A stretch of 60,072 bases of DNA from Chloroflexi bacterium TSY (GTDB lineage Bacteria > Chloroflexota > Anaerolineae > Caldilineales > Caldilineaceae), in the NCBI GenBank assembly GCA_019217005.1, contig JAHBNG010000090.1, forward strand, positions 1 to 60,072, read 5' to 3'. Every line of letters starts with the position of its first letter. Position 1 is the stretch's first letter. The position numbers were made by a program, and so were the translations under genes. The notes beneath the pieces are model-generated. The model did not search any database and was not told where the DNA came from. It was given only the letters and a program-made list of their open reading frames with translations. Of the stretch, positions 8,119 to 59,967 are shown in pieces.

Positions 8119-8294
8119 GCTGAGATCGAGTACTGTGGCGAATACCGTCGAGCAACATTCTCCAGGTTAGCAATTACGCATTGATTCTGCTAATGGCCCG
8201 ATTGCTGACGCGTTAAGTCTCCACACAAAGAACTGCAAACTAGACGGACACAGAATATGGCGTCCGAATCAGTATTTCGACACGCAATGTACCG

Positions 8295-8331
8295 CAAAAA
8301 AGAAGAACCTCGAGATGATCTGAAGGTTCTT
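8295..8331 (-). terminator. Intrinsic terminator, minus strand
   Basis: The stem AAGAACCT (8303-8310) / AGGTTCTT (8324-8331) is preceded on the plus strand by an A run (8296-8301), which becomes a U-tract after the hairpin on the minus strand. It lies downstream of the S9 peptidase fragment and dispersed repeat copy 2. Confidence 0.65.
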
Positions 8332-8337
8332 TGTGTC

Positions 8338-8625: not shown

Positions 8626-8711
8626 GGTTCGCCTAGGTGACAGTCGCTTTTAAGCGAAGCGACGGTGACTGCCACCCAGAACGGGAAGTACTTTTTGGGC
8701 ACTCACTTATA

Positions 8712-16645: not shown

Positions 16646-19419
16646 ATGCACAACCAATCAATCGATATCTCTAACGCGGAACCGAGGTCGGAGCAGAGCC
16701 CCAACGTTGGTGTCTGGGTCACGGCCGGGTTTACAGCCTTTCGCCAGGGAATCTTTGGCAGCGCCGGAGCCAATTTGTACGTTTCACGCGCGGGGGTGCT
16801 GCAACGTATCCACCATTTTGATCTCAACCAGAACGGTTATGTAGACCTGATCTTCTGTAATAGTCAGGATCACTGGGAGCGACCGCCGGTCTACGTTTAT
16901 CGCAACTGCCTGGCCCGTGGGACTCGTCATGAACTGGCGGCTGAGGGTGCACGTGCCGGAGTTGTTGCCGATCTGAATGGGGATGGATATGACGATCTGG
17001 TGGTTGGCAACTACTACAACGGCATTATGCTGGAACTAAATGCCACCATTTACTTTGGTTCGCCCCAAGGGTGGTCGGAGCAATTCAGTCAGCCCTTGCC
17101 TGCACCGCTCTGCAGCAGTGTGGCTTCGGGTGACTTCAATGGCGATGGCCGTCCCGATCTGGCGTTTCTATGTGACGGCAAGGTTCGTCTCTTCTATCAA
17201 AGTGAACTCGGTTTTGAACCACAACGATACCAGAAGCTTGCGATTGAAGGCGAACAGCTTGATGCCGCCGACCTGGATGGCGATGGCTATGCGGACCTCC
17301 TCGTGCGCGACGTGGAGGGTGCCGTTCGCGTCTATTGGGGTGCTGAAGATGGTTTAGACATCGAGCGCAGTTCCCTCGTGCCGATTCCTGTCGACGCGCC
17401 AGAGACTTCGATCCACCAAGATCTAACCAGCGATGCTGAGCACGTGGAAGACGCCTCGCCGTTGGTGCGCGCTCTTTGTTTGGATGACACGACGCATATC
17501 TTTGTGGCACATCGTCAATTTGCTGCTCTCGTACCAGTTTCACTGGAGCGCACTTTTGACGCTCCGCTTCTGTTTAGATGTGCCGGTGCAATGGCAGTTG
17601 CTGCGGGCGATCTTAGCGGGACCAGCCATGAGGATTTGGTGTTCGCCTGCCGTGAATCCGATCAACCTGCTGCCAACGGTGAACGGCGTCAGCGTTCTTG
17701 GATCTATTGGAGCGATCGGGGTCAATATAGTGAGGCGAATCGCTCAAGCCTGTCGACCTTTCATGCCTGTGACGTAGCCGTGGCCGATCTGGATGGTGAT
17801 GGCTGTGCGGAAGTCGTGATCTGTCAGAATCACGATGGCGTATCGTATACGACTGCGGCGCTCGTATTCCGAGGCGGTCGTGTAGGCATCAACAACGAAC
17901 CGATCCAGCTGGCATCTCATGATGCTCGCCGAGTTTTGATAGGTCGCAGTTCTGACCAGCCAACGCCCGACGTGGTGCTAATCAATCACTTTGCGCGCAG
18001 CAAGATTGGCAACATCGACAATGTTATCTACTTCGGCGGCCCTGATGGCTATCAACCCGAGCGCTGCCAAAGATTGCCCGGCTGGGGTGCTGTCGAGGTG
18101 CTGCGCGTCGATCTCAACGACGACGGCCTACCCGATCTCGTCTTTGCCAATGCTGCCGAAAACTCGATCAGACGCGATCCGGGTTCCTATATCTATTTGA
18201 ACAGTCAGTCCGGATTTGCGTCGCAGCCGAGCCTATCGCTACCCACAACGCGAGCCCATGGCGTAGTCTGTGCTGACCTGAACCACAATGGCTATCTCGA
18301 TCTGGTCTTCTGTGGTTTCGACAATCCTGAATTACTCTTCTTCTACGGTTCTGCCACCGGCTTCGATGCAGCCAATCCCACGCGTCTGCTAATGGAACAC
18401 CAAGGCGAACGCTTTCAAGAACCGCGCTGGATCTATCTGGCGGATCTCAACAATGACGGCTACCTTGATCTCGTTGTTCCCCAATGTGCGTCTGACCGAT
18501 TCTTTATTCTTTGGGGTGGGCCTGACGGGTTCGACATGGCGCGCTGTCAGTTTCTGTCGGCCATTCACGTCATCTGTGCACGGGCGGCGGATCTGACCGG
18601 TAACGGATATCTGGATCTGATTGTAGGCAGCCTTGCACCGTCGCCTCATGGCCCTCACGATTCGTTTGTCTATATCTTCTGGAATGGCCCGGCTGGGCTA
18701 AGTTCGGCGCGCTGCACGGTCTTACCGGCCAATCACGTGAACTGTATTGCCGTGGCCGACTTCAACAATGACGGTCGCCTCGATCTTTTGTCGGCTCCTA
18801 TGCCGATGGCCGGGTGCGCGATCTGGATTCCTATATCTATTGGAATCGTCCAGGACGCTACTTTTCTGCTGAGGATTGTACACGACTCTTTACCCATTCG
18901 GCTTCGGGCTGTGTGGCTGCCGATTTTAACCATGACGGCTATGTTGACCTGGCGATTGCCAATCACAAAGTGTGGGGCGATCACGTGGGCTACTCTGAGG
19001 TCTGGTGGAATGGGCCGGAGGGCTTCGACAACCGCCGCACCACCCGCCTGCCGACCAGCGGTCCACACGGGATGACGGCAGTCGAGCCGGGCAACCAAAA
19101 CGATCGCGGGGAGTTGGAATATTACATCTCAACACCGTTCGAGCTACCCGACGGTGCCGTGCCAGTGCAAATATCCTGGCAGGCTGAATTGCGGCCAGAA
19201 ACCTGGCTGCAAGCACAGTTGCGATCTGCTCGAACGGTCGATCAACTGAAGGCAAAGCCCTGGGTTGGTCCAGAAGGAGAGAATAGCTGGTTTGACAACG
19301 AAAAAATGGTCCCCCAAGATTTGTGCAGTGGAAAATGGCTTCAATATCGGCTGGCCTTGGGTTCTACGAACAGCGGCTGTACGGCCCGCGTCCGCGAGGT
19401 ATGCGTGAGCTATGGCTGA
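16646..19419 (+). CDS. FG-GAP/VCBS repeat beta-propeller protein, frameshifted
   Basis: About 924 residues when repaired. At least twelve calcium-binding-like repeats of the form D-x-[DN]-x-[DN]-G-x-x-D are visible (for example DLNGDGYDDLVV, DFNGDGRPDLAF, DLDGDGYADLLV, DLNDDGLPDLVF, DLNHNGYLDLVF, DLNNDGYLDLVV, DFNHDGYVDLAI), which build integrin-alpha-like propellers. The frame is lost at about 18786: one T is missing from a T run, where CTTTTGTC should be CTTTTTGTC to give DLFVGSYADGRV, and the next frame continues to 19419 with a further repeat and a C-terminal beta-domain. No signal peptide is visible at the N-terminus (MHNQSIDISNAEPRS), odd for this usually secreted family. Ligand unknown; carbohydrate binding or recognition is possible. 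Confidence 0.85.
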
Positions 19420-40138: not shown

Positions 40139-41946
40139 CTGCTAAAACCTATACGGACATCCTCCTTTTCAGACGCTTGCTACACTACGCAAGACCCTAC
40201 GGGCCTCATATTGTCGGTATTTTTTTGCTAAGCTTGCTCTCAACACCTCTTGCGCTGCTGACGCCTTTGCCCTTGAAAATCGCCGTCGACAGTGTTATTG
40301 GCATCGAACCGATTCCGCACTTTCTGGATATGCTGCTACCCGCAGCCGCCACCCAGTCGGCTGCCACGACCCTGATCGTTGTCGTTGGTCTCTTGATGCT
40401 CATCACACTACTGAAACAACTCCAGGAACTGATGAGTTCGGTCCTGCATACTTATACGGGTGAAAAACTGTTGCTGGATTTCCGCGCCCAACTCTTTTGC
40501 CACAGCCAGCGGCTTTCGTTGACTTACCACGATACAAAGGGAACAGCTGACACTACTTACCGCATCCAATACGACGCATCTGCGATCCGCTATGTCACCA
40601 TTGACGGGGTGGTGCCGCTTGTCACCGCCAGCTTTACCCTGGTTTCAATGCTCTATATTACCTTTCAGCTTGACCAGCAACTCGCGTTTATTGCCCTATC
40701 CATATCACCTATCCTTTTCATCATTGCCAGAGTCTATCGCCAACGCTTGCGTCAGCAGTCACGTGAGGTTAAGAAGCTTGAAAGTGTTGCCTTGTCAGTC
40801 GTGCAGGAAGTACTGACCGCTCTCCGCATTGTGAAGGCGTTCGGTCAAGAGGACCGCGAGCAGAAGCGCTTTTTACGTCAGTCAAGAGCAGGTTTGGGGG
40901 CTCGCATCCACCTGACAATGGTCGAAGGCAGTATGGGACTTCTCCTCGGCCTGACGATGGCCCTCGGAACGGCAGCCGTTCTCTTTATCGGCGTTCGTCA
41001 CGTGTTGCAGGGGATCCTCACCTTGGGTGACCTGCTCTTGGTGATGGGTTATCTTTCGCAACTCTATGATCCGCTAAAAACAATTAGCCGAAAAACTGCC
41101 CGACTACAGTCATATCTAGCCAGCGCGGAACGGGCTCTTACCCTCCTGGATCAACCTTCCGATGTTGCTGAACGACCAAACGCCCGACCGATCACTCGTG
41201 TCAAAGGCTTCATAACATTGCGTGATGTATCATTTAGCTACCACGATAAGCAGCCGGTTCTGAGCCATATCTCCGTTGATGTCCCGGCTGGGACACGCGT
41301 GGGTATTGCCGGCAAAACCGGGGCAGGGAAAACAACGCTCATGAGCTTATTGCCCCGATTTTATGATCCTACCGCCGGTCAGGTCTTGCTCGATGGTCTT
41401 GATTTGCGCGACTACAGACTGGCTGATCTGCGCAACCAATTCTCGATTGTTCTTCAGGACACGATCCTCTTCTCAACGACTATTGCTGAGAACATTGCCT
41501 ATACCCGCCCAGGCGCCAGCGAGCAGGAGGTTGTTGAAGCGGCTAGGGCAGCTAATGCCCACGATTTCATCGCCAGTCTCCCTAACGGCTATCAAACCCA
41601 GGTTGGCGAACGCGGCATGCGTCTTTCCGGAGGGGAACGCCAGCGGATTGCGCTGGCTCGGGCCTTCCTGAAAGACGCCCCCATTCTCATCATGGACGAA
41701 CCGACCAGCTCCGTTGACATGAAAACTGAAACTGAGATTATGGAAGCCATAGAGAAGCTGATGAATGGCCGCACGACCTTTATGATCGCCCATCGTCTGA
41801 GTACTCTTGAACACTGCGACCTGTTGCTGGTGGTTGAAGAAGGTCGTCTGCTTGATATGACATCTGACGTGTCAATGACGGTCAAGGAGATGCTGCCGTC
41901 AGACAGACTTGTGCCGGCCATTTCGGGAGACGAAGTCTATGTCTAG
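40135..41946 (+). CDS. ABC exporter (MsbA-like half transporter)
   Basis: 603 residues from the ATG at 40135, preceded by AGGGGGAG. The transmembrane domain (1-310) contains six helices (LLSLLSTPLALLTPLPLKIA, TLIVVVGLLMLITLLKQL and others). The nucleotide-binding domain has Walker A GIAGKTGAGKTTLMSLL (about 388-404), Q-loop IVLQDTILFSTT, signature RLSGGERQRIALARAFL (about 495-511), Walker B PILIMDEPTSSVD and the His of TFMIAHRLST. It would homodimerise to export a lipid, glycolipid or small molecule. It overlaps the GT gene upstream and the kinase gene downstream, placing it in a glycoconjugate operon. Confidence 0.95.
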   Translation: MTAKTYTDILLFRRLLHYARPYGPHIVGIFLLSLLSTPLALLTPLPLKIAVDSVIGIEPIPHFLDMLLPAAATQSAATTLIVVVGLLMLITLLKQLQELMSSVLHTYTGEKLLLDFRAQLFCHSQRLSLTYHDTKGTADTTYRIQYDASAIRYVTIDGVVPLVTASFTLVSMLYITFQLDQQLAFIALSISPILFIIARVYRQRLRQQSREVKKLESVALSVVQEVLTALRIVKAFGQEDREQKRFLRQSRAGLGARIHLTMVEGSMGLLLGLTMALGTAAVLFIGVRHVLQGILTLGDLLLVMGYLSQLYDPLKTISRKTARLQSYLASAERALTLLDQPSDVAERPNARPITRVKGFITLRDVSFSYHDKQPVLSHISVDVPAGTRVGIAGKTGAGKTTLMSLLPRFYDPTAGQVLLDGLDLRDYRLADLRNQFSIVLQDTILFSTTIAENIAYTRPGASEQEVVEAARAANAHDFIASLPNGYQTQVGERGMRLSGGERQRIALARAFLKDAPILIMDEPTSSVDMKTETEIMEAIEKLMNGRTTFMIAHRLSTLEHCDLLLVVEEGRLLDMTSDVSMTVKEMLPSDRLVPAISGDEVYV

Positions 41947-42931
41947 CCATGTCGTCAATAGCGTAACCCAGGCGAATTCATCCGAACATCTGGCTGTCAA
42001 GACCTGGCACGAGCTGGGCCTGAGTCGCGTTGAGCCTGAAGCCATTGTCACGCTCAAAGCACAACAGACGGCGAGCCAAATGTCAGCTACCTATCGTCTC
42101 GAAGGAGTTGGGCCGGGGGGCAGTGGCGTGATCGCCAAACGCTGTCAGCAAACGACCGGGGTGATCGAGCACACCATCTACAAAGAAATCCTACCCCACC
42201 TCCCTATACCGACTTTGTCCTGCTACGGCTTTGTGGCAGAACCCGAGGGGGAGTTCTGTTGGCTATTCCTCGAAGATGCTGGTAGCGAGGCATACGTACC
42301 GCAGTGCGCCGCGCAGCGCCTGCTTGCTGCGGCGTGGTTGGGGAAGATGCACACGGCTGCAGCAAGCCTAATAGTGACTGTCCAATTGCCTGACCGAGGA
42401 CCAGTCCACTATTTGAACCACTTGCGGTCAGCCCGCAACACGATTCTGCAACACTTTGATAATCCTGCCCTTCGGGATGAAGACCGAGAACTCCTCAGAT
42501 CGATCCTGCAGCAGCTCGATCTCGTGGAATCGAACTGGAGCCAGGTGGAAACGTTTTGCCGGAGCGTATCAAGAACGCTCGTCCACGGCGACTTTGTCAG
42601 TAAGAATGTCGGGGTTCAGAGAGACGATGGCAGGATGATTCTGCTCCCTTTTGACTGGGAGACCGCTGGGTGGGGCGCGCCTGCCGCCGACGTCCTCCGT
42701 ATCGATCTACCTGCCTACTGGGCAGCTGTGTACGATGATTGGCCTGGGGTGGAACTTCAAACCCTGGAGCAGATGGCGATCATTGGGCAACTATTTCGCG
42801 GCTCTCTGGCACCAATCAATTGGGAAGCGCAGAGCCTGGCATACGAGTGGGTTCAAAGTTCGATGAGTTGCTTGCACGTTTTTCATACTCGGCTGACCGA
42901 GGCTATCCGGGCGTCAGGCTGGGCAGGTTGA
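41939..42931 (+). CDS. APH/choline-kinase-family phosphotransferase, copy 1
   Basis: The ATG at 41939 overlaps the ABC gene stop by 8 bases; 330 residues. Catalytic loop RTLVHGDFVSKNVGV and metal motif LLPFDWETAGWG are intact, so it is a plausible kinase. N-lobe YRLEGVGPGGSGVIAKRCQQ binds ATP. The family phosphorylates small hydroxyl-containing molecules such as sugars, aminoglycosides, choline or homoserine. Together with the other three in this cluster, it probably modifies a sugar or amino-alcohol unit of the exported product (inference). Confidence 0.88.
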   Translation: MSSHVVNSVTQANSSEHLAVKTWHELGLSRVEPEAIVTLKAQQTASQMSATYRLEGVGPGGSGVIAKRCQQTTGVIEHTIYKEILPHLPIPTLSCYGFVAEPEGEFCWLFLEDAGSEAYVPQCAAQRLLAAAWLGKMHTAAASLIVTVQLPDRGPVHYLNHLRSARNTILQHFDNPALRDEDRELLRSILQQLDLVESNWSQVETFCRSVSRTLVHGDFVSKNVGVQRDDGRMILLPFDWETAGWGAPAADVLRIDLPAYWAAVYDDWPGVELQTLEQMAIIGQLFRGSLAPINWEAQSLAYEWVQSSMSCLHVFHTRLTEAIRASGWAG

Positions 42932-42935
42932 ACTG

Positions 42936-43914
42936 ATGTCTAAACACGCGACCGTCGAGATTATCCAAACCAATCTGATCGAACATCCGGCCGTCATAGC
43001 CTGGAATGAACGCCAGCCAAACTCGGTTGCGCCTAAGGCGATAGCTATTCTAAAGGAGTCGCCGCGGAAAAACCCAGTGAAGGAGTCGGCCGTCTACCGG
43101 CTTGAGGGTCTTGGGCCGGGGCAAGGCAGTGATTGCCAAACGGTGTCGGCGGACTATCGCAGCTGTCGAGCGGATCATATATGAGGAAGTTCTCCCGCAC
43201 TTGCCCATTGCTTCCCTTCGCTATTACGGGTTCATAGAGGATGCAAATGACGCGTTTTGCTGGTTGTTTCTAGAAGATACGTGCGGAGTGCCCTATTCAC
43301 CACAAATTGCGGAACATCGTGCTTGCGCAGCACGATGGCTAGGCCTCATGCATACCTCGACTGCTAAGATTACAGCTGCACTGCAATTGCCCAACCGTGG
43401 GCCGGATCACTATCTGGCCCACCTCAAATCGGGCCGCAGCACGATACAGCAGAATCTGGGCAACCCGGCGCTAACTGGGGACGACTTGGCACTATTGGCA
43501 TCCATTATCCAGCAGTGTAATCGGCTGGCATCGCACTGGGATCAGATTGAGCAATTTTGTTTCGCCATGCCCGACACCCTCGTTCACGGTGACTTTTTCA
43601 GCAAGAACGTGCACATTCGAAATGGTTGGGATGGTCTTGAGCTTTTACCTTTCGATTGGGAACTTGCTGGCTGGGGCGTACCCGCTATTGATCTGGTCCA
43701 ACTAGATATGACTACTTACAGAGCTGTTGTGCAGGCCGTCTGGCCGGGGTTAGATGGTCAGACTCTGCAGCAGCTGACAGACATTGGCCAAACGTTCCGC
43801 TATCTCGCCGCTATCGATTGGGAATCCGAAGGACTCGCCTATCGATGGGTGGAAAAGCCTCTCAGAAACATGCAAGTCTGCCAATCATGGCTGGCCGATA
43901 TAGACTTATTGTAA
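42936..43914 (+). CDS. APH-family phosphotransferase, copy 2, frameshifted
   Basis: Begins with the ATG at 42936, 4 bases after the copy 1 stop (MSKHATVEIIQTNLIEHPAV). The frame slips at about 43125: an extra A in GGGGCAAGGCAG. With CAG in place of CAAG, GLGPGQAVIAKRC lines up with GVGPGGSGVIAKRC of copy 1, and the second frame continues to 43914 with HGDFFSKNVHI and LLPFDWELAGWG, so the active site is intact in the second part. It is a close paralogue of copy 1. As sequenced, only an 82-residue product arises from the natural start, unless an internal start such as 43102 is used. Confidence 0.85.
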
Positions 43915-43927
43915 ACATAAGCAGACT

Positions 43928-44194
43928 CAGTAGATCCAATTTCCTGCGGAGGAGGCGTTCTCTATTACACGCAGTAGACATAATCCTGCATTTCTCAGTC
44001 AAAACAGACTCGAGCGGGCCAAATGGTCCGAGATTCTCTACTGCGTCTTTTTTCGCCATTTGAACGCTCTACCTCTGAGAAATCCTACTGCGTGTAATCT
44101 CTAACGCCGGATCGAGTCGAGTAGAGCCGCATTAGAGAATGGCTGCGCCATACATGGCGACTCCGCGTACATAAACCACAATTTGGATCTACTG
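43928..44194. mobile_element. 267-bp MITE-like element, related ends but different interior
   Basis: Begins CAGTAGATCCAATTT and ends AATTTGGATCTACTG, flanked by the direct repeat AGACT (43923-43927 and 44195-44199). The termini match those of the 215-bp MITEs, but the interior is different and contains nested palindromes, including TATTACACGCAGTAG (about 43964-43978) and CTACTGCGTGTAAT (about 44084-44097). It lies between kinase copies 2 and 3. Confidence 0.8.
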
Positions 44195-44230
44195 AGACTG
44201 GATATATACAGGCTCAAATTGAGGATATTA

Positions 44231-45338
44231 ATGATTGAGGGTCTTGATGGCTTACTCGCAAATATGGACCAATCCGGTCTACCCGAACTCCGCGACTTAC
44301 TGATGGCGATGCTGGGTGGGCCAACAGTCGACGGCCAACTGCTCGAAGAACAGAAGCTGCTGCGCTCACGCGTATACCGTTTACGCTTTGACGTCGACGG
44401 CGATGTTCGTTCACTAATCGTTAAGCGCTTCTTGCCAGAGCGCGCGCGGCGTGAACAACTGGCCATACAGCAATGGCTTCCGGCGGTCGGCCTACCACGA
44501 AGTGCGCCCATATTGTTAGGGGTCGCAGCAGCCCAAGGCGGTCAATATGTCTGGCATGTCTATGAAGACCTTGGAGACTGGACCCTCGATAAAAATGGTC
44601 TAGAGCCTGGACAAGCCGAAGCCATGAAGGATTGTGGTTTTCTCTCTCCGTTAACGATGAGTCCGGTTATCGAGCGCGTAGAAGTGGCAGTCGAATTGAT
44701 TGCACAGCTACATACGCGGTTTGCCGATCATGCCTTGCTCGCGGCGTGCCGTCTGCATGGGGGAGACCTGGGGCTCTACTTTTTTACGTCGAGTGTGCGC
44801 GACGCAATTCGTAGCTTGCAATCGCTGCGTCCACCAAAGGTCGAGCTATCTTTGGATCGCCAGACCTTGCGCAACCGCCTGCTGCAACATTTACGCCGCC
44901 TTATCGATGAACAGCCGTACCGCACAGAAACCATGATAGAATTCGGTGGACCTGATACGTTGCTCCATGGCGATTTTAGTGTAAAGAACACCTTTGTACG
45001 CCACACAAAAAACAAGCTGCAGGCGCAGCTCATCGACTGGGACCATGCTGGTGTCGGCCCCTATATGCTATGATCTCTCGAATTTCCTAGTTCAATTTCC
45101 ACCTCGTGACCGGCAGCCGATTCTGGACTTTTACCAACAAGCAAGTGAGTGGCATGGACAACAATGGCCATCTGTGGAGGTCTGGAACGTGCTCTTTGAT
45201 ACGGTGGAGTGTGCCCGACTGGCAAATAGCATTATCTGGCCGGCGCTTGCTGCCGGGGAGGATCAGGCAGCAGAATGGGCTTTCGACGAATTGATGCAGA
45301 TTGAGGAATGGTTTGCGGCGTTAGGTCCAGTCCTCTGA
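44231..45338 (+). CDS. APH-family phosphotransferase, copy 3, frameshifted
   Basis: The start at ATG 44231 (MIEGLDGLLANMDQS) is chosen because upstream codons lie in the end of the mobile element. The first frame runs to a TGA at 45073 and includes DTLLHGDFSVKNTFV and LIDWDHAGVGP. The break at about 45060 is an extra C in a CCCC run; with three C, GGC CCT ATA TGC continues as VGPICYDLSNFL into the frame ending at 45338. The active site motifs are complete. The N-terminal region is more divergent (HSRVYRLRFDVDGDVRSLI). Confidence 0.83.
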
Positions 45339-48944: not shown

Positions 48945-49961
48945 ATGGACTACGACGAGACAACTTGTCTGATGATCGAAACTTTGGCCGCGGGACTATC
49001 CGCACTACGTGGCCAAGCGGTCACCATTCACAAAATGCAGCGTGAATTATTCTCCGGCAGCTCAAGTTTTTCGACAGAGCTGCTGCGGGTGCTTGTGAAT
49101 GATGACGAATGGCTGGCGGTGTTTTTTAAGGATCTCAATCCCCACCATCAACTCGATATCGCGCAAAACATCCGTTGCAAGCCGGAACTAGACCGAAGTT
49201 ATCGTGAGTTGCAGATGTATCGGGAGATTCTGCCTCGATTGCAATTGGGCACTCCGGCGCTTTACGCCTTTCGCTGGGAGCCACACGCTGACCATTTTTG
49301 GCTCTTTATTGAAAATGCTGGCCCCAAGCGACTGAGCCGTTTGGGAGACTTTCAGCTTTGGGTCGCGGCAGCGCGGTGGGCAGCCCGGTTTCACGCTGCT
49401 GTGCGCAATCTCCCGGTTGAAAAGACCGATTTTCTAATCTATTATGACCAGGCTCACTATCACTCTTGCGCAAAGCACCTGGAGCAAAACCTCGCAAAAT
49501 TCGATGTCGAACAGCAACAGGTTATCCACCACGCGCTTGATGCTTATCAGGACATCTTCGATGACCTGGTTGCGTTGCCAAGGCATCTCATCCACGGGGA
49601 GTTCTTTGGTAAGAATGTAATGATCCGTCCGGGAAATCCAGATGAGCCGGTCGCCGTGATCGATTGGGAAACGGCCACGATTGGCCCTGGCTACGTCGAT
49701 CTGGTGAGCATCAGCGCTGGCCGGTGGACCATCGAGCAAAGGCAGACCATGTGGCGGGCCTACTTTGATCAGTATCAAGCGGAGACAGGGCTACAATTGA
49801 ATTGGGAGCACTTTTGCCATGAACTTGGTCAGGTGGCCTTGTATCGAGCTTTGGCCTGGCTCGGTTGGTGGTCAAATGGGGATGCTGCTCACATTGTCCG
49901 GTGGATGGCAGAGTTGGACAAGGTAACGACTACTATTTTTCAGGCAACTCATAGCAAGTGA
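48945..49961 (+). CDS. APH-family phosphotransferase, copy 4, with HGE catalytic motif
   Basis: 338 residues. The catalytic loop reads RHLIHGEFFGKNVMI: the usual catalytic Asp is Glu. The metal motif AVIDWETATIGPGYVDL is intact. The N-lobe (SFSTELLRVLVNDDEWLAVF) is more divergent than in copies 1-2. The Glu form may be inactive or altered in mechanism. It starts 17 bases after the interrupted glycosyltransferase gene and closes the plus-strand cluster, converging with the subtilase gene. Confidence 0.85.
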   Translation: MDYDETTCLMIETLAAGLSALRGQAVTIHKMQRELFSGSSSFSTELLRVLVNDDEWLAVFFKDLNPHHQLDIAQNIRCKPELDRSYRELQMYREILPRLQLGTPALYAFRWEPHADHFWLFIENAGPKRLSRLGDFQLWVAAARWAARFHAAVRNLPVEKTDFLIYYDQAHYHSCAKHLEQNLAKFDVEQQQVIHHALDAYQDIFDDLVALPRHLIHGEFFGKNVMIRPGNPDEPVAVIDWETATIGPGYVDLVSISAGRWTIEQRQTMWRAYFDQYQAETGLQLNWEHFCHELGQVALYRALAWLGWWSNGDAAHIVRWMAELDKVTTTIFQATHSK

Positions 49962-50021: not shown

Positions 50022-52376
50022 TTAACGTCGTAAGACGGGTAAAAAGATCTGGTACGATTGTTGTACCGCACGAATTTGAAGAGCAATCTGTATACCATCA
50101 GAAGTGGTATAGTTTTTAACAATGACGCTTCTTCCCTTGGTCAAGTTGCCACTTAGCACTGTATCAACGGTCACAACATAATCGGTTCCTCCAATGATCC
50201 AAATACCTTCGTTACCTGTACTGGGCACGGCATTGATCTGACCTTGTCTCTGGGTTACCTTGAGCGGCTGCATTGAGACAAAGGCTGCGGTGATCGTCGC
50301 CGAGGGCACTGGCGTAGCCGTCTCTGTTTCCGACGGCGATGGATGTGGTACAGGGGTTGCCGTTACGCTAGGCACAGGGGTTGAGGATGCTGTTGTATCG
50401 GGTGTGACGGTCGTTGTTGGCACAGGTGTGGCGGTGGTAATAGATGTGTTGGTGATTGTGTCCGTTACGCTGGGAGTCACGCTGACTGTTACTTCTGGTG
50501 TGAGGGTCGTTGTTAGCACAGCTGTAGCAGTGGTAACAGGTGTGTTGGTTATTGTGTCTGTTACACTGGGAGCAATGCTGACCGTTACTTCTGGTGTGAG
50601 GGTCGTTGTTGGCACAGGTGTAGCGGTGGTAACAGGTGTGTTGGTTATTGTGTCCGTTATGCTGGGAGTCACGCTGACTGTTACTTCTGGTGTGAGGGTC
50701 GTTGTTGGCACAGGTGTAGCGGTGGTAACAGGTGTGTTGGTTATTGTGTCCGTTATGCTGGGAGTCACGCTGACTGTTACTTCTGGTGTGAGGGTCGTTG
50801 TCATGGTAGGTGAAACTGTGATGGTTATGGTTGGGATACTGGTAGGTGAGGGCATCGGTGTGCCATTTGCACATCTCTTAGTGCGAATACGCACGGCTGT
50901 ATAGGGTTGGGCATTAGTCGACTCCTCTGCATGGTAGTCCACGCGCACGCAGGCGCCCACAACCAACGGGCCTCGACCTCTATACAATTCGGTCGTCGTA
51001 TCGACCAGATACCCTCTTCCTGCAATCACCCAAGTTCCTGTAAGGCTACTGCTAGGAAGAATTTCAATTTGGCCAAATGTCTCGCTGATAACCGTACCCG
51101 GATCGGTTGGTGCCTGGCAGTTCCCCGCGTCATCGCAGAGTGCTTGCAGGCTGGCCGCGACAGCGATTCTACCTACCCCTAATGCTCCTGCAAATCCTGG
51201 GTTGAGTGACTCTATTGAGACGGCTGTGTTACGAATGTGTTGTGCAACATTGCGCGCCGGGGTGTTTGGCGCAACGCCAAGAATAAGCGCAGCCTGACCG
51301 CTGACAAATGGCACGGCCATGGATGTGCTGCTCCACCAGGCATGACCATCGGGCGGGAATATGCTATAGATACTTGAACCTGGCGCAGCTATATCGATCC
51401 AGTGGCCAAAGTTGGCAAAGGTTGACTTTGTGTTGTTGGCATCGGTGGCGGTGACTCCGAACACTCCTTCTTCTGCTGCGGGGTACTGTTTGTTATTGCC
51501 ATTTAGGTTCCCTGCAGCGCCAATGATCAGTACATCATACCGATCTTCCATATCATCAAGTACGTCCTCCATCAGTTCTGACTGTTGGCTCGTGCCCAGG
51601 CTGAGGTTGATGATATGGGCACCGTTTTGGGCCGCATAGCGTAGCGCTTCGGCAAGCACAAAGACGTTGCCACGCCCGTCAGCGTCTAGCACGCGTAGCG
51701 GCATGATCTGCGCTTCGGGTGCAACCAGATGAACAATCCCCGCAACGTGGGTACCGTGTCCCCATGCCTCATCGATCAGTCCATCACCATCGTCATCCAG
51801 GTTGTTGATTTCATCCTCAGGAACTGGGTCATCGTCGACAAAATCATAACGGCTTGTGGTCAGATGAGCGGCCAGGGTTGGATGGTTGAGTTGTAGACCC
51901 GTATCCAGAACAGCGACGACGACGCCATTGCCGCGGTTGAGCAAATGGGCATCGGCCAGCCCCAACAAGGCAGTGGCATATTGACCCATCAGCGGGGCTA
52001 CGTCTGGTCCACCCCAATCCCAAGAGCCACGTCCATCACCTTCTGGAGCCTCGGTCAGGTGGTTGGGTTCTGCATAGAGGAAACGCAAATCGTCTTGCAT
52101 TTGGTCGGCAATGGTTATGGCATTACTACCGGACGGTGTTTGCAATCGATAGATACCTTGGCTTCCTAATAAGATTTCCAACGTGCTGGTACCGTATTCA
52201 CGATTGATAACATCGATGCTTGTAGCCCTGGCCGGATTTAACTTAACGACAACTTCTGTAGATTTAGATTTGCCTGAGGTTTTTCCAGCCCAACCAATAT
52301 GCGCGCTAGACGGAAATAATCCCACCAAGAGGCCCGCGATTAATATTAATTTGAGGTAAATCCATTGATATTTCAT
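50022..52376 (-). CDS. Secreted S8 subtilisin-like protease with Thr/Pro repeats
   Basis: 784 residues. Signal peptide at 1-30 (YLKLILIAGLLVGLFPSS), a propeptide-like region, and a peptidase S8 domain with Asp158 (AVLDTGLQ), His207 (GHGTHVAG), oxyanion Asn290 (GAAGN) and Ser352 (STSMAVPFVSG). A DUF5666-like module follows (GQIEILPSSSLTGTWVIAGR), then four 32-residue Thr/Pro/Val repeats (VTVSVTPSITDTITNTPV), a second DUF5666-like module (GIWIIGGTDYVVTVDTV) and the tail YQIFLPVLRR, a Chloroflexota-style C-terminus. The ATG overlaps the stop of the CHAT gene (ATGA), so the two are translated together. Substrate: probably extracellular protein. Confidence 0.93.
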   Translation of the reverse strand: MKYQWIYLKLILIAGLLVGLFPSSAHIGWAGKTSGKSKSTEVVVKLNPARATSIDVINREYGTSTLEILLGSQGIYRLQTPSGSNAITIADQMQDDLRFLYAEPNHLTEAPEGDGRGSWDWGGPDVAPLMGQYATALLGLADAHLLNRGNGVVVAVLDTGLQLNHPTLAAHLTTSRYDFVDDDPVPEDEINNLDDDGDGLIDEAWGHGTHVAGIVHLVAPEAQIMPLRVLDADGRGNVFVLAEALRYAAQNGAHIINLSLGTSQQSELMEDVLDDMEDRYDVLIIGAAGNLNGNNKQYPAAEEGVFGVTATDANNTKSTFANFGHWIDIAAPGSSIYSIFPPDGHAWWSSTSMAVPFVSGQAALILGVAPNTPARNVAQHIRNTAVSIESLNPGFAGALGVGRIAVAASLQALCDDAGNCQAPTDPGTVISETFGQIEILPSSSLTGTWVIAGRGYLVDTTTELYRGRGPLVVGACVRVDYHAEESTNAQPYTAVRIRTKRCANGTPMPSPTSIPTITITVSPTMTTTLTPEVTVSVTPSITDTITNTPVTTATPVPTTTLTPEVTVSVTPSITDTITNTPVTTATPVPTTTLTPEVTVSIAPSVTDTITNTPVTTATAVLTTTLTPEVTVSVTPSVTDTITNTSITTATPVPTTTVTPDTTASSTPVPSVTATPVPHPSPSETETATPVPSATITAAFVSMQPLKVTQRQGQINAVPSTGNEGIWIIGGTDYVVTVDTVLSGNLTKGRSVIVKNYTTSDGIQIALQIRAVQQSYQIFLPVLRR
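50401..50800. repeat. 96-bp tandem repeat in the subtilase gene
   Basis: Four units of 96 bases (50401-50496, 50497-50592, 50593-50688, 50689-50784) and a partial fifth unit. Units 3 and 4 are identical, so duplication is recent; units 1-2 differ slightly. They encode the 32-residue Thr/Pro-rich linker repeats. Confidence 0.92.
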
Positions 52377-55373
52377 TGTAGTCCGATGCGTCGATCTTCT
52401 CTCACGTTCGCAGGGTTCACTTCAGACAGATTCAATTGAGGCGCAGCAAAACCATTCCCAAATACAACAAAAGGTGCCCAGTAGTACGGATGAGGATAGA
52501 TCTCCATGAGTGAAAGCTGGGCTTCACGCAGTGCCATGGCAGGCGATTCCCCCTGAGCCATCCGTTCATACCATTCTGCCATGAGGACGGCACCCACATC
52601 ATCTTGGACAAGCCACTGGCTGACGACTAGCGTTGTTGCCCCTGCCCCCAGAAAGGCACGAGCCAAGCCGAGCAACTCATCGCCGCCGAGTATATGACTA
52701 CGCCCCGATTTACAAGCACTGAGTGTTACCAGTGCGCCGCTCAGGTCATGGCGGGCTGCATCAGCCGCAGTCAGCCAGCCAGCCATCAGCCAACTTTAAT
52801 GCCGAAAAGAGGGGATTGTCAGCGCGAAATAGTCCATGGCAGGCAAGATGTAGCAGCCGAGATGATGCAGCCTGTGAGGCGAAAACGTCCATCGTGGCCT
52901 GTTCGTTGAGATAGACGGTCACGTCTCCTACTTGCTGCGCAACAATCGCGACTTCTTCTTCGACAGCTGGTATATCAGCTTCAGCCACACCCATGATCAA
53001 TGCTTGTCCAGTTTGGCGTAGGGATCGACGCAAACAAATGGCCAAGACTGTTGCGCTGGGCGCGAAAGAGAGAACATAACGCGCTAGCAGATGTTGCTGG
53101 CCATCGTAGAGCGCATGAAAGGGAACATGGTGCAACAGGCCATGAGGTACAATGATGAGCTTGGGCACGGAGCGGACTGATGGATGAAGTGAAATCGCTT
53201 GCATGGAAACCAGCGGCTCCAACAGCTCACAGTAGAGCGCATTGAGGATCTGTAGCGTCGTTCGTTCTAGGTGTACCATGTGGCGGTTCACTAGCGCGTC
53301 TCCTGCTCGAAAAACCTCTAACTGGGTGTTGAATTTATTCAGCAATTGCTCGATGGCTTCCGTTGATGATATCCAACGCCGCATATGGATACTGTTGCAC
53401 CCAACAACAAAGGCGATGATTTCATCTTCTAGAATGTAATATGACAAAATCTGGGTATCAGGCGACAATTGAGCTTGAATTTCTACCAGTGACAATGGCG
53501 TTGCAAACGAGGTAGATGTAGGTTCATGAAGCGGTACTTGTATAGTTAACTGCTTAATTATCTGCTCGATGTATACGGCACGCGTCTGCAGTTCCGAAAA
53601 GCGTAGGTTGCGGTCCCCACTGGGTAGAGTCCCTGATTCGCGTGCCATACGGTCGCTGCCATCATCTAGCATATCATTGTAAATGGCGTTCAGATCGGCC
53701 TGCAGTTGGTGCAGTCTTTCGCCAATTTCCCGGGGCAATTCGCTGCTTGATTCTATCGACAGCGCACCTGAGATACGATCGAGCAGGGTGCGGGCACGGG
53801 CGCGCTCTGTTACATCAAAAGCTCGTTGTATATTTTCCTCATCATTGCGCGCGATATAGATGGATAGCAGCGCATCGTATGCTGCAATTTTGTCGCGCAA
53901 AAAGGACGTACGCATGGTCTCTCGTGCCAATGTATTGCGAAGCGCTTCTATCTCTTTCACGGCGTTTGTGAGCAATCTTTCGGCTTCTGCTCTTTGATTT
54001 TGAGTCAGCCTCAATCTACCTAAACGTTGCTCTACTCGATAGCGAAGATGGGGTAGGTTCAGCTTTTGAGAGATCGTTGCGGCAGCTTGAAGGTGAGTTT
54101 CAACCAGGGCTGTGGTATCCGCCTGTAGATCAGCTAGCTGCAGATGGGCAAAAAATTGTTGTACAGGCCAATCTCCTTGCGATGCCAGTTCCAATGCATG
54201 GTTCGCCACAGTGACAGCCACCTCCTGTTGACCCCGGTGTGCAATCACAGCGGATTCTTCTGTCATAACACCAGCACGCAGCGGTGCATTGCCCACTTTG
54301 GCAAATAACGCGGCCGCCTTTGTCAATGCAGACTGCGCTTCATCCAATTGCCCCATCATCTGCCGCGTGGCGCCCATGCCCCAAAGCGCCCAAGCTTGTT
54401 CATAGACCATGCCAGCCGCACCTAATATTGCTTCAACTTCGCAAAATGCTGCGAGTGCCTCATCGTAGAGGTTTAGCGCAAGATAGGTATCGGCCATCTG
54501 CCTCAGATTGATCTGCTGATCTACTTTGGTATCTTGACCTTTTAAGAGCGTTTGGGAGCGTTCATAGGCCATGAGAGAAGCTGTATAATTGCCCAAGAGG
54601 AGATACACCTCGCCCAGGTTGCTCTGGGTATGTGCCTGTGGCAGGTGCAATCCAGCATTCTCTTGAATGTGTGCCAGGCTCTGAAAAACGTGTAACGCTT
54701 CGCTTGCTCGACCTAGATAGAGCAGCGCAAGTCCTCGATTGTTGCTGACCATTGCGATCCGTTCAGGCATGTCGAGTACCCGATACTGTCTTTCAGCGTT
54801 ATCTAAGGCTGAAAGCGCCTCTTGATAGCGCCCGCTATAGATGAAACACATGCCGCGTTGAGCATGGGCCAAGGCGATTATCAATTGTATCTCTAGGGGG
54901 TCGTATTTCCCTTCCTCAGAGCGGAGGATCTCGGCGCGATTGAGCATGGACTGCCCAACATCAAGCGCGTCTTGAAAACGGCCTTGTTCTCCCAGAACGC
55001 GCATCAAGCCAGCGTTGGTGCGAATGGACTCTAGCACCATACCCAAATCTGTGTAAAGCGCCCGGGCGTGCACGATTAACTCATTTGCGGTTGCAAAGTC
55101 GCCATTGATGGCATGGCTTTGAGCCTCTAGATAGAGTGCGCGAGGGACAAGCGTTGGGATACGGATGTGTGTTGCGGCTTGTCGACAGCACACGGCTAGC
55201 TGTCTAGCCTGCCCAGGGTTGCGCCGTGCTAGTTTTTCCGTCTCATCGAGCAGACTATCAATGCCGAGCTCATCTAGCAATTCGGCCTTTTGGAGTACAT
55301 CTATTTGCTCCTCGAATGTCTGTAAGGCAAGCAGTTCATCGAGCCACACAGCGTTGATAAAGGAATCTGTCAT
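52373..55373 (-). CDS. TPR-CHAT protein, frame broken at an AGCC repeat
   Basis: About 998 residues when repaired. Helical TPR-type repeats span about 60-480 (ALSALDNAERQYRVLDMPER, SLMAYERSQTLLKGQDTKVD, LNLYDEALAAFCEVEAILGA), followed by a CHAT caspase-like domain. Its His lies in HLACHGLFRADNP (His846) and its Cys in LVTLSACKSG (about 886). The frame is lost between them at three tandem AGCC units (52773-52784). With two units the protein reads LADGWLTAADAAR; as sequenced, it stops at LADGWLADCG. CHAT proteins are proteases or regulators of other proteases. It overlaps the subtilase by 4 bases and follows the sigma/anti-sigma genes. Confidence 0.9.
52773..52784. repeat. Tetranucleotide tandem repeat (AGCC)3 inside the CHAT gene
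   Basis: Three AGCC units (GGCT on the coding strand) lie between the codons for the catalytic His and Cys of the CHAT domain and coincide with the frame break. One unit less, or two more, restores the frame. Confidence 0.8.
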
Positions 55374-55620
55374 AGAGTACGTTTACTTTGGTAACTCAAG
55401 TTGCTACCTCCTATCTCTACCTTCAGTGCAGATTCGTAAAATTGAGCTCTCACCTCGAGATAGAGAGCAACTTAGATTAGGAGTCGTAAAATTCAAGCAA
55501 ATAAATAAATATGGATGAATCGATTCGTTTATATACCGCACGAGCTTATAAATTTAAAATCAATTTGAGCCGTTTTAGTCGAGTAGAGACGACAAATTAA
55601 TTTTAAATCTGTGGCCGTGC
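55374..55620. other. Gap before the CHAT gene
   Basis: About 250 bases, AT-rich. CGTAAAATT occurs twice (near 55433 and 55486), which could be a pair of binding sites, but nothing further supports this. Confidence 0.3.
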
Positions 55621-56280
55621 TCAGTATATGTCTGATATTTCAAGTATGATTTGAAATGTATCCCCTACGAATTTCATTTGATAGTCGTGCTGTGCAACAG
55701 ACTCAAAGGCAAATTCGCCCAGAGAATTCGCGGTAGTACTCGTGATGACCTCCTCATCTAGCATCAGTTCTATACGTACGTGTTCGAGAGGGAACGTTTC
55801 TAGCGGTAGAAGCTGACCATTAATGCCGACTTTCTGCTGATCATGAGGTCTATGAACATTGATCACAATATCGGCAACTTCTGCGCGAAAGGTGAGTAGT
55901 CGGGTATCGGCTGTTTGTGCAGTACGTGCACCGGCGGAGGCCACCGTTGCACCGCTATCGAAGGTCAAGGAAGCGATCAGTTGGCGTAGTACGCTAGGTT
56001 GTGCATTACGAGTCGATTGAGATATAGAGCGATGTTGGGCATATTGAGCAAATTGATTTCGTAAATTGCTGCGCACGCGAGTGGGCGGCACCTCATGATT
56101 CAGTTCGCCGCGCAAGCGCACAAACGCTTGAAGCCAAAGAACCTCAGCCTGGATAGCCTCCTCATTGCCTGAAAGAAGAGAGGCCACCTTTGTTTCTACC
56201 TTTGCAATCTCTTGTGGAGAGAGACGTCCATCGATCCAATCGAGCAGTTCTTCAAACGTGGGTCTGACGTTGTCGGTCAT
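55621..56280 (-). CDS. Putative anti-sigma / regulatory protein
   Basis: About 219 residues from the ATG at 56280 (AAGGTG 8 bases upstream). FEELLDWIDGRLSPQEIAKV is typical of the N-terminal segment of zf-HC2-like anti-sigma proteins, but the zinc ligands (HxxxC-x2-C) are missing. There is no transmembrane helix. The C-terminal half (EVADIVINVHRPHDQQKVGI, ITSTTANSLGEFAFESVAQH) looks like a carboxypeptidase-regulatory/immunoglobulin-like fold. It lies 366 bases after the ECF sigma gene and 248 bases before the TPR-CHAT gene on the same strand, so it may link the sigma factor and the CHAT/protease pair (inference). Confidence 0.65.
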   Translation of the reverse strand: MTDNVRPTFEELLDWIDGRLSPQEIAKVETKVASLLSGNEEAIQAEVLWLQAFVRLRGELNHEVPPTRVRSNLRNQFAQYAQHRSISQSTRNAQPSVLRQLIASLTFDSGATVASAGARTAQTADTRLLTFRAEVADIVINVHRPHDQQKVGINGQLLPLETFPLEHVRIELMLDEEVITSTTANSLGEFAFESVAQHDYQMKFVGDTFQIILEISDIY

Positions 56281-56645
56281 TTCATGCACACCTTTGCGTA
56301 TGTATCCATTCTGGAAGAGATGAATCCAGTAAGTATCTGAAAGAAAGGTTTGTAAGCTTCTTCGGAATGCTAACTCTTTGATTCAACCCTTACAGTTGAC
56401 CCATTTGTCAAGACCACAAAAAGCACGCCAACCTTCACTTTAATGACTTGTATGACAAATTCAGAGAATGGATTTCCAATATTGACGCAAGTTGCGATCT
56501 ATGAGCTTTCCCACTGGTGGCGAATTTTGAACGCATAAGTCTAACCTCACAGGAGAAGCAACTTGGATTATATTAATACTGTCTTTAACGTAGGGGGAAA
56601 ATACATCAATTGTAGAAAAGTCGAATATTGATAGTTGATTGAACT
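56281..56645. other. Gap between sigma and anti-sigma genes
   Basis: 365 AT-rich bases. No gene or terminator is supported. It may hold a promoter for the anti-sigma/CHAT/subtilase genes, possibly driven by the adjacent sigma factor. Confidence 0.35.
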
Positions 56646-57245
56646 TTACGAAGACCCGAGCAGATCGCGTAAACGCTTGAGACAACGGGCGCGAGTGGGG
56701 CCGATACTGCCTTCGGGCATCTCCATACGGTTGGCAATTTCAGCATAAGAAGGTTCCTTTTCATCTAGATAAAGCGCAGTAAGCAATTGACGACAGCGTT
56801 CGCTAAGTCTTGATAAACCAGTCTGAAGCCATTGGGCAAGCTCCCAATGCTCTATACTTTTTTCCTTGGCTATCCGCGGCAATAGTCCAACAGCAATCTC
56901 GGGATCGGTTAGTCTGCTTTGGCGGCGCAACTGCCGTACTAGGAGGTGTTTGCTATGACGACGCGCAACGGTACTCAACCAACCAGATAAGCTACCTTCA
57001 TCGGTCATCTGGTCCAAACTTTGGAGTAATATCGTGAAGGTCTGCTGTGTAATATCAGCCGCATCATCAAAAGAGAGACCGCTATTGCGCGCGATAGAAA
57101 AGACGAGCCGTTCATATTTATCTAGTAAACGATCCCAGGCTTGCTCATTGCCCTGACGGCAGGCGCGTAACAAGCCTTCATCTTCAGCAATATCATTATT
57201 GTGTTTGGACCGATCTTCCCTGTTCTCAGCTAGCGTTGGATTCAT
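56646..57245 (-). CDS. ECF-type RNA polymerase sigma factor
   Basis: 199 residues. Sigma region 2 spans about 25-95 (AWDRLLDKYERLVFSIARNS, DDAADITQQTFTILLQSLDQ) and includes the -10 recognition helix (LSGWLSTVARRHSKHLLVRQ). Region 4 lies at the end (LSERCRQLLTALYLDEKEPS, YAEIANRMEMPEGSIGPTRA, helix-turn-helix). It is of normal ECF length. It would direct polymerase to its own set of promoters, likely including the CHAT/protease genes downstream. Confidence 0.93.
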   Translation of the reverse strand: MNPTLAENREDRSKHNNDIAEDEGLLRACRQGNEQAWDRLLDKYERLVFSIARNSGLSFDDAADITQQTFTILLQSLDQMTDEGSLSGWLSTVARRHSKHLLVRQLRRQSRLTDPEIAVGLLPRIAKEKSIEHWELAQWLQTGLSRLSERCRQLLTALYLDEKEPSYAEIANRMEMPEGSIGPTRARCLKRLRDLLGSS

Positions 57246-58101: not shown

Positions 58102-59967
58102 CTACTCTGACGGCAATTGATCAAGTAAGGCCTTCGCTTCCAACAGATCTGGTGTGTCAATTCCTTCTGTGAACCAACTGTAGATGTCGTTCAGCTCTGC
58201 ACGCGCAATTTCGCGTTTCACTTGCGTATCCGACAGCTTGCTCAAGTCCATGATTGCTCTCAGCTCGAATGATCTCGCCTGTTGCCGGCGCGCAATTTCA
58301 ATTGCGTGGAGTAGACACCCCTCAATCTCGATCTCGGCAGCGCCGTTTTTGTGAAGCAGTTCCGCCTTGAGCCGGAACATTTCAGACTGCGACCAAAATT
58401 CACTGCTTTCTTGGGCTGATTGTTCCGCAGCATTCACTACACAAAGAGCATCTTCGAGTCTGCCGATCTTTTCATAGGCTCTTGCAAGTAGGCAAAGATA
58501 ATGTGGCCGCGCCAAATTGCCCCACACAGTTGTCAATGCTTTAAGAGCCTGCTGTATTGAGTCCACTGCTTCTTCGCATTGGTCCAACTGAGTTAGAGCC
58601 CAGCCCCGCATCACATTCGCGTGTTCGATCCACTGTTTGAACTCATGCTCAATAGACACCTTAATGGCTAATTCAGCATGTTCCTGTACATCTGCTACTT
58701 TCCGTCGAAAATGATGGAATACAGCGGCAAAAAAGTGAGCGACTGCGATACTGTGGGGATGAGCTAGCTTATAGGCGAGCGCTACTGCTCGTTGACTCCT
58801 CCTAAGCGCTTTGTCTGGGTAACCGAGGATCCAGAAGATTAACGCCGCATAAGAGAGGCAATCGACTCCAGGATCCGGTAGAGCATGATAGATATGACGC
58901 TTCTCGGGATTGTAGAGAGCAAGACCCTGTTCCAGATGTACCATGCTGGATAGGAACTCGCCCTGATGCGTGAATGTCACCCCAAGTCCCTCATGTGCAG
59001 CGAGCAAAAGCGGCAAATCGTGGACGCGCTGCGCAATCTCGAGACATTGCTCCCCTAAATTCCGTGCTGCTTCTAAATTGCCCCTCATCATATAGCAAGT
59101 TCTGAGACCTGCGAGTACTTGTGATAGCTCTGAGATTACTCCTAGTTTGTCACACAAAGTTTGTGCTCTTACATAGGCATCTTCTACCGCTGCTGCTCCA
59201 TATCCATGTACGGTCATGAGTACCTTGCCAAGAGTAATCTGTAGCGTCAGTTCTTGGCGGTCACGTTCACGACTGCTGGGCATGAGCACAAGTTGAGACA
59301 GTGCACGCTGATAGTAGCCAATCGCTGTTTCCGCGGCAAACTTTTCCTCGGACAATCGTGCTGATTGCAGGTAATAATGGAGCGCTTCTACTTCATCACC
59401 AGCCTGTTCATAATGATATGCCAAGTGTGCAGCCATTGTTGGCATTTCATTTGGATAGTGCTTCTTGATTGCTTCAGCAACGCAACGGTGCAGTGACGTG
59501 CGACGGGGTTGGCTCAAACCCTTATATGTCACTTCCCGAATTTTGTCATGGCTGAAAGTGAAAAGACCGTGTCTAGTATCGATCAGTAGGCCACAAGCAA
59601 GCAAATTTTCTAAGCAGGCCCAAGTCTCCTTCTCGCTTAGATCGCTCAGCTCTATAAGTAAATCTTTTCCAAATTCACCACGCGTCACTGCGGCCGCAGT
59701 TAAGAGCTCGCGACTAGGTTTATCTAGTTTGTTAAGTCTGCTGTTGATAATTGTCTGTATCTGGGAGGGTATTACGTCCATCTGCTTGCGAAAAGCATCT
59801 TCCCACTCCTCATCTGTACTCGGTAGATGACCTTCCGCGACCAAATTGGAAATCGTTTCAACAATGAATAAGGGGTTGCCTTGGGTGTTCTCATTAATCA
59901 GTTCACCAAAGGCAGCATCATTACCAGTCCAAGATGTCAAGTCCTTCAGTAGGTCTACATAGGGCAA
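58102..59967 (-). CDS. ATPase/TPR regulatory protein, probably missing its N-terminus
   Basis: 621 residues counted from a TTG at 59967; the same frame is open to about 60026 (EPPQIIPSFLSCTSTRLPYV), where a stop lies. The N-terminal part reads like the C-terminal half of an AAA_16/NB-ARC-type ATPase (NENTQGNPLFIVETISNLVA, a GNPF motif, VIPSQIQTIINSRLNKLDKP, winged helix LLTAAAVTRGEFGKDLL). The remaining two thirds are TPR repeats (AIGYYQRALSQLVLMPSSRE, AYEKIGRLEDALCVVNAAEQ, VDSIQQALKALTTVWGNLAR). Such proteins normally carry an N-terminal cyclase, kinase or DNA-binding domain plus P-loop, none of which is seen here, so the gene is probably truncated or frame-broken upstream of the window edge. 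Confidence 0.75.
   Translation of the reverse strand: MPYVDLLKDLTSWTGNDAAFGELINENTQGNPLFIVETISNLVAEGHLPSTDEEWEDAFRKQMDVIPSQIQTIINSRLNKLDKPSRELLTAAAVTRGEFGKDLLIELSDLSEKETWACLENLLACGLLIDTRHGLFTFSHDKIREVTYKGLSQPRRTSLHRCVAEAIKKHYPNEMPTMAAHLAYHYEQAGDEVEALHYYLQSARLSEEKFAAETAIGYYQRALSQLVLMPSSRERDRQELTLQITLGKVLMTVHGYGAAAVEDAYVRAQTLCDKLGVISELSQVLAGLRTCYMMRGNLEAARNLGEQCLEIAQRVHDLPLLLAAHEGLGVTFTHQGEFLSSMVHLEQGLALYNPEKRHIYHALPDPGVDCLSYAALIFWILGYPDKALRRSQRAVALAYKLAHPHSIAVAHFFAAVFHHFRRKVADVQEHAELAIKVSIEHEFKQWIEHANVMRGWALTQLDQCEEAVDSIQQALKALTTVWGNLARPHYLCLLARAYEKIGRLEDALCVVNAAEQSAQESSEFWSQSEMFRLKAELLHKNGAAEIEIEGCLLHAIEIARRQQARSFELRAIMDLSKLSDTQVKREIARAELNDIYSWFTEGIDTPDLLEAKALLDQLPSE

Follow-up and report, generated by a model that had tools for sequence, protein, structure and literature searches.

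What does a sigma factor do beside a caspase-like protease? A 60,072-nucleotide stretch of Chloroflexi bacterium TSY (GenBank assembly GCA_019217005.1, contig JAHBNG010000090.1, positions 1 to 60,072; hereafter the window) carries genes for an extracytoplasmic function (ECF) sigma factor, an anti-sigma-like protein, a tetratricopeptide repeat (TPR) protein with a CHAT protease domain and a subtilase of family S8 (Table 1). The original prediction, made from the DNA letters, read these genes as a proteolytic relay in which CHAT may act on the anti-sigma protein or on the subtilase. Their placement on a single strand was borne out: all are on the minus strand, each with matches to its family. 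Here we show that sigma factor, anti-sigma factor and TPR-CHAT protein form a real and conserved module that is free of clustered regularly interspaced short palindromic repeats (CRISPR), and we argue that release of the sigma factor by the protease is its probable mechanism.

A close precedent is Craspase, the type III-E CRISPR protease. Passages of PMC10028731 and PMC9729208 describe how its TPR-CHAT protein, Csx29, cuts Csx30, a binding partner and inhibitor of a sigma factor; the cut is placed after Leu407 (passage in PMC9729208). As with Csx29, Csx30 and CASP-sigma, the locus studied here co-encodes a TPR-CHAT protein, a sigma inhibitor and a sigma factor, and the CHAT domains are related. 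In contrast to Craspase, the inhibitor here is a 222-residue anti-sigma protein with a carboxypeptidase-regulatory-like domain, whereas the same passages describe Csx30 residues up to 560. The original prediction saw no CRISPR locus. A scan of the window and 138 loci for at least 3 exact 20-mers spaced 45–90 bases apart detected no CRISPR-like array in the window and flagged only locus L020, where the signal came from repeated GC-rich 20-mers; Cas7-11/gRAMP was not searched for by profile.

Are the four genes kept together elsewhere? Loci were drawn from a one-genome-per-species scan with a TPR-CHAT alignment, from which the best 80 of 391 were kept. Neighbouring genes were identified independently of the query, and the fractions count loci with enough flanking sequence. 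All four genes are present in 41 of the 49 testable loci. The ECF gene lies upstream on the same strand in 57/63, the anti-sigma gene adjoins CHAT in 52/54 (40 upstream, 12 downstream), and an S8 gene is found within 4 kb downstream in 55/60. By comparison, the parts of these loci that lie over 5 kb away from CHAT, 340 kb in all, contain 1 ECF, 2 anti-sigma and 0 S8 matches; the linkage of the four genes is far above chance. Even the six loci scored as lacking an ECF gene (L004, L020, L025, L032, L039 and L042) include one, L004, in which tblastn finds both ECF and anti-sigma genes, and another, L020, with an ECF gene on the opposite strand. The original prediction was to be abandoned if the neighbourhood proved unconserved in relatives, or CHAT and anti-sigma genes unlinked; with the neighbourhood conserved across loci, it was not refuted on these grounds. 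Mirror-tree correlations of 0.78–0.91 (47 loci) lack a species baseline, and no argument here rests on them.

The phyla with the conserved set are mainly Chloroflexota, Actinomycetota and Acidobacteriota, and the record titles name mostly Anaerolineae, Caldilineae and Chloroflexales, Rubrobacteraceae, one Pseudonocardia and Acidobacteria. The anti-sigma gene lies after CHAT in part of the Acidobacteria loci. In L045 (Acidobacteria) the module is flanked by genes for an SBP_bac_5 protein and an HD_5 domain protein (7369–9183 and 14946–15641), and similarly sized open reading frames (ORFs) occupy the corresponding places in several other loci.

The sigma factor aligned with 31 orthologues (29–56% identity). 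A protein search with the window anti-sigma protein returned only the query itself; the family was recovered by tblastn over the CHAT-selected loci, with starts picked by expected position and GTG or TTG read as methionine. A profile, A2, was built from 40 of the 42 sequences at hand, leaving out those of L028 and L037, and contains 39 orthologues with 19–35% identity to the window protein. The N-terminal half of A2 matches solved anti-sigma domains (RsiW at 7.7e-4, and ChrR, DdvA and RskA more weakly) and the C-terminal half matches NOMO2/transthyretin-like beta domains. The AlphaFold model of the window protein, with a predicted local distance difference test (pLDDT) score of 87, contains four helices in residues 12–95, two short strands and a short helix, then a coil (116–128) and a beta sandwich (129–218). 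The description of this protein as zinc-less was right for the window copy, which lacks the HxxxCxxC ligands; they are retained in 4/41 relatives (L036, L038, L048 and L069). Pfam at E <= 0.01 finds zf-HC2 in 4/40 members and CarboxypepD_reg in 20/40, and neither in the window protein. No clear transmembrane helix was found in any anti-sigma sequence (top 19-residue hydropathy 1.86). The anti-sigma profile matches, the relatives with residual HxxxCxxC, the predicted fold and the lack of a clear membrane helix therefore make it probable that the protein is an anti-sigma factor of soluble type whose zinc ligands have been lost. On profile evidence, its helical domain is homologous to known anti-sigma domains and of a degenerate zinc type, differing from the zinc anti-sigma (ZAS) family by the missing ligands. 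We regard an anti-sigma role as very likely.

Does this family follow the protease? The large genome searches scored 6–10 candidates per genome. Among Chloroflexota genomes, CHAT (E <= 1e-40) is present in 45/47 with the anti-sigma family and in 33/353 without it (p=1.2e-35, phylogeny uncorrected); in the class of the Pseudonocardia genome, CHAT (E <= 1e-20) is present in 23/24 with the family and 95/272 without (p=2.5e-9, likewise uncorrected). CHAT lies within 6 kb of 47/59 Chloroflexota family matches, a count made from 48 CHAT rows, with the 12 unmatched rows checked by eye against the full list. In wider loci of the Pseudonocardia class, CHAT is within about 5 kb in 8/12. Homologues with the beta domain and the preceding loop mostly adjoin CHAT, some with no ECF gene in the locus DNA examined, whereas N-terminal-only matches are ordinary anti-sigmas next to ECF genes, with no CHAT in the locus DNA examined. 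It is thus the part made of beta domain and loop that tracks CHAT.

Only three columns of A2 are invariant (40/40), and all belong to that part: the coil residue R122 and two beta-domain residues, G158 and F193. Across non-identical homologues covering both loop and beta domain, the loop Arg is present in 100/100, and in 88 of the 100 it is followed by S, G, A or T; it is also present in 23/23 homologues from the class of the Pseudonocardia genome (G004). These counts rest on homologues retrieved with a profile in which the Arg was already invariant. The 100 had to extend to profile position 150, a filter that removed sequences without loop coverage and also L101, an ordinary anti-sigma whose aligned residue is Ala; no row is gapped at the Arg. 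The loop is coil in the AlphaFold model (block pLDDT 74 and 69). An Arg followed by a small residue would fit a candidate scissile site with a small P1'. Outside the four-gene set, L129–L137, from genomes of 5–14 Mb in the Chloroflexota search, have longer homologues with the same loop Arg beside CHAT; no ECF gene was found in the locus DNA examined, and several of these homologues have two zinc-finger-like HxxxCxxC motifs. L140 (the same place as L122) encodes a tandem pair of solitary beta-domain proteins that keep the loop Arg, and its 12 kb contain neither a CHAT nor an ECF gene; the pair are possible CHAT targets in trans.

As expected of a Craspase-type system, the TPR-CHAT protease has catalytic His and Cys residues, which are invariant in 39/39 relatives. 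The model of an intact relative (pLDDT 89.7) has a TPR solenoid followed by CHAT, with a low-confidence loop at residues 900–910, right behind the catalytic Cys. With this model, the best solved structures in Foldseek are human separase (5.7e-15) and Craspase Csx29 (6.7e-14), with DdvA lower (3.3e-12); in a sequence search of solved structures the top matches are Craspase chains (8.3e-15). According to a passage in PMC9729208, separase reads a P1 Arg with D2151, and the Craspase equivalent is Lys670. An invariant W-x-x-x-D of CHAT had led us to expect a separase-like P1-Arg pocket, an idea dropped after the Craspase alignment.

The copy in the window has a split CHAT gene and makes a poor example of the module. 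A single TPR-CHAT protein with a His/Cys pair had been predicted here; instead the catalytic residues sit in two ORFs in different frames. The first ORF matches TPR_12 (4.6e-24) and positions 3–167 of the CHAT profile (3.3e-24) and contains the His846 codon at 52836–52838, and the second contains an LSACKSG motif with the catalytic Cys codon at 52712–52714. The ATGA overlap with the subtilase gene is present at 52373–52376, but its partner is the second CHAT ORF only. The change of frame falls at a D-G-W-L motif, inside tandem 4-base units, and the first ORF stops just beyond the motif. This stretch is unbroken in 29/29 aligned relatives (34–48% identity to the first ORF), and a single frame crosses the site in 78/80 loci. 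The two exceptions are L033, truncated by the contig end, and L034, whose C-terminal half is absent. In L034 (12262–12365), CHAT without its Cys half passes almost directly into subtilase sequence, by deletion or by an assembly join.

How should the break be read? One explanation, confined to the window copy, is a sequencing or assembly error with the gene whole in the organism, or else a programmed frameshift; we give this slightly less than an even chance. The second ORF runs for 137 codons without a further stop and retains its CHAT motifs. CHAT also lies over two frames, at other positions in the gene, in 3/80 other loci (L021, L028 and L046), all of them metagenome-assembled, and because of these draft-assembly error is a live explanation. 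The single frame in 78/80 loci counts against a conserved programmed shift. If the break is not an assembly error, the switch proposed below would be inactive in the window, or could not be switched.

Table 1. Features of the four-gene locus, in window coordinates
Feature	Position	Strand	Basis
ECF sigma factor, 199 amino acids	56646..57245	minus	Sigma70_r2 4.9e-10; Sigma70_r4_2 2.5e-6; TIGR02937 2.5e-21
Anti-sigma-like protein, 222 amino acids, GTG start	55621..56289	minus	profile matches, AlphaFold model, hydropathy
Arg122 codon, loop preceding the beta sandwich; candidate site at which CHAT binds or cuts	55924..55926	minus	invariance in homologues
TPR-CHAT first ORF, 870 amino acids: TPR solenoid and His half of CHAT	52761..55373	minus	
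TPR-CHAT second ORF, 137 amino acids: Cys half of CHAT	52373..52786	minus	CHAT 2.1e-31, profile 176–289
Short tandem repeat, 3 copies of a 4-base unit, frame-change site in CHAT	52773..52784	minus	sequence
Probably secreted subtilase, 784 amino acids, D/H/S motifs	50022..52376	minus	Peptidase_S8 3.2e-42; mycosin-like 1.3e-48

From the conserved gene set, the anti-sigma homology, the catalytic residues of the relatives, the invariant loop Arg and the linkage of CHAT with the beta domain, we infer a protease-gated sigma switch. The soluble anti-sigma would hold the ECF sigma factor through its degenerate zinc-type helical domain, and the C-terminal beta domain with the preceding Arg loop would present it to TPR-CHAT. 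On a signal sensed by the TPR array, CHAT would act on the anti-sigma, most likely by a cut at or near the invariant Arg, and the disabled anti-sigma would set the ECF sigma factor free. As a whole we hold this explanation to be marginally better than an even bet. Of its parts, that CHAT acts on the anti-sigma in some way is likely; that it does so by cleavage stands evenly balanced; and a cut at the loop Arg itself is a tentative proposal. The relay first predicted is best supported, through conserved linkage and co-occurrence, in its CHAT-to-anti-sigma half.

Several observations weigh against this switch, and some of them favour control by binding, in which TPR-CHAT governs the anti-sigma as an allosteric partner or scaffold and the loop Arg serves docking or fold stability. 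The CHAT gene of the window is broken, and its catalytic Cys is followed by Lys where 29/29 relatives have Glu (alignment A1). None of the 25 sequences of alignment A5 has Asp or Glu at the position aligned with Craspase K670 and separase D2151, so either a different pocket recognizes the Arg or the Arg is not P1. The loop Arg could be structural, because G158 and F193 are equally invariant. The Arg is also kept without CHAT in the locus DNA examined in L139, L140 (twice) and the second copy of L045, and without nearby CHAT in L172, L175, L179 and L181. The co-occurrence statistics, as given, carry no correction for phylogeny, and three family-bearing genomes (G075, G236 and G667) have no CHAT match at the thresholds used; G667 nevertheless has a PF12770 match. 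A partner in trans is possible for the copies that lack CHAT: PF12770 CHAT genes occur in 12/12 genomes, including those of L139, L140, L172, L175, L179 and L181, and in 1/14 controls. This is a weak rescue because CHAT is common in the Pseudonocardia class (118/296 genomes). PDB 8rot, titled transmembrane anti-sigma factor DdvA, includes a 991-residue CHAT-domain chain; going by title and chain name, nature has therefore joined both functions in one protein, which counts for the switch and would also suit binding without cutting. DdvA (PDB 8rot, 8rw5), from Myxococcus, resembles the present pair in tying anti-sigma function to CHAT, and differs in being transmembrane by title, whereas here there are two proteins without clear membrane segments. 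Yet invariance of His and Cys is hard to account for without catalysis, and the Arg with its small neighbour in a coil loop resembles a scissile site. We consider binding alone rather unlikely.

The neighbourhood itself is not new, because a passage of the 2022 review PMC8999054 names a carboxypeptidase, a subtilase and CHAT as the context of group ECF54, for which control by proteolysis without an anti-sigma has been proposed; among the open-licence literature, mention of this neighbourhood was found in passages of this review only. The likeness to ECF54 lies in the neighbourhood, with CHAT and subtilase near the ECF gene in both. In the review's section on mainly actinobacterial cases, ECF54 is printed without an anti-sigma, whereas the genes studied here include one with an anti-sigma domain, and the set extends across Chloroflexota and Acidobacteriota. 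If the printed version is correct, the adjacent peptidases would degrade the sigma factor itself, a course that the passage relays from other papers. We think this improbable: what was called a 'carboxypeptidase' probably consists of an anti-sigma domain that carries a regulatory-like beta domain (CarboxypepD_reg, as noted for A2), and the subtilase appears secreted. We think that the ECF54 'carboxypeptidase' neighbour is the anti-sigma found here. This identification, the spread to Chloroflexota and Acidobacteriota and the invariant loop seem to be the new elements. A passage of PMC8195603 places ECF sigma genes near other caspase-domain systems too. Could the locus instead serve in defence, with infection activating CHAT and the sigma factor switching on killing or immunity, as has been suggested for Craspase? 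The kinship of CHAT with Csx29 speaks for this. However, PADLOC has no match for sigma, anti-sigma or CHAT, and its subtilase matches are limited to a generic subtilase model and a weak one to IetS; the scan found no CRISPR-like array in the window; and among the 30 other window ORFs scanned, those matched by Pfam appear to be phosphotransferase, transport and metabolism genes, together with one FG-GAP protein. Defence seems to us as improbable as degradation of the sigma factor.

Protease-gated release may have a further parallel in CalpL-CalpT-CalpS, the protease, anti-sigma and sigma factor of a type III CRISPR system, in which the protease reportedly frees the sigma factor from its inhibitor, much as proposed here; it differs in using another protease that is activated by cyclic nucleotides and linked to CRISPR. 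A broader, more speculative and on balance unlikely reading is that sigma release by a TPR-CHAT that cuts a soluble anti-sigma at one universally conserved Arg loop is widespread without CRISPR. This would be the ancestral form, or a parallel one, out of which the CRISPR-linked Csx29, Csx30 and sigma factor were put together, and the solitary beta domains elsewhere in some genomes would be further CHAT substrates. If the proposed switch is true, it supplies a defined target, with a predicted site, to many of the TPR-CHAT proteins found in Chloroflexota, Actinomycetota and Acidobacteriota; it makes a sigma/anti-sigma pair, opened by an unusual protease, out of a group hitherto described as having no anti-sigma; and a CRISPR-free relative becomes available for asking how the sigma arm of Craspase arose.

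What, then, is the role of the subtilase? The window protein has a signal-like hydrophobic N-terminus and catalytic D/H/S motifs. Among its relatives, the motifs occur in 64/72, as does a hydrophobic 15-mer ahead of the catalytic Asp (64/72). A hydrophobic 19-mer, which is a different measure, is found in the aligned region of 2/80 CHAT and 0/70 anti-sigma sequences. The CHAT-to-subtilase step of the relay is unsupported and was dropped on the likely topology, a secreted subtilase. From its signal-like N-terminus, set against CHAT and anti-sigma proteins largely without hydrophobic stretches, the subtilase is more likely made as an output of the regulon than as a target of CHAT. Its Thr/Pro-rich tail (50401–50801) contains a 96-bp tandem repeat of 4.2 copies.

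A shared ECF promoter ahead of each gene had also been anticipated. A crude dyad scan upstream of ECF, anti-sigma, CHAT and S8 genes (61, 69, 73 and 72 regions) established no common motif. Dyads exceeded the shuffled level, but the scanned regions contain coding DNA, and the top S8 dyad, traced by eye, falls on the conserved codons for HPYYWAPF with which CHAT ends.

Elsewhere in the window there are five genes of the APH phosphotransferase family (PF01636), at 4671–5645, 41909–42931, 43102–43914, 44183–45073 and 48945–49961, four of them within 41.9–50 kb of the 60-kb sequence. Several oligopeptide-type ABC transporter sets (SBP_bac_5, BPD_transp_1) lie between 8712 and 33470 together with M24 peptidases, FAD oxidoreductases and a PhyH protein. 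The FG-GAP repeat protein (16646–19075, 809 amino acids) has a weak TcdB_toxin_midN match (2.3e-7), probably through shared repeats. Near the edge of the window, at 58102–59967, a TPR protein matches the C-terminal part (702–1267) of the TOMM kinase/cyclase model TIGR03903 at 4.2e-64, under the curated cut-off of the model.

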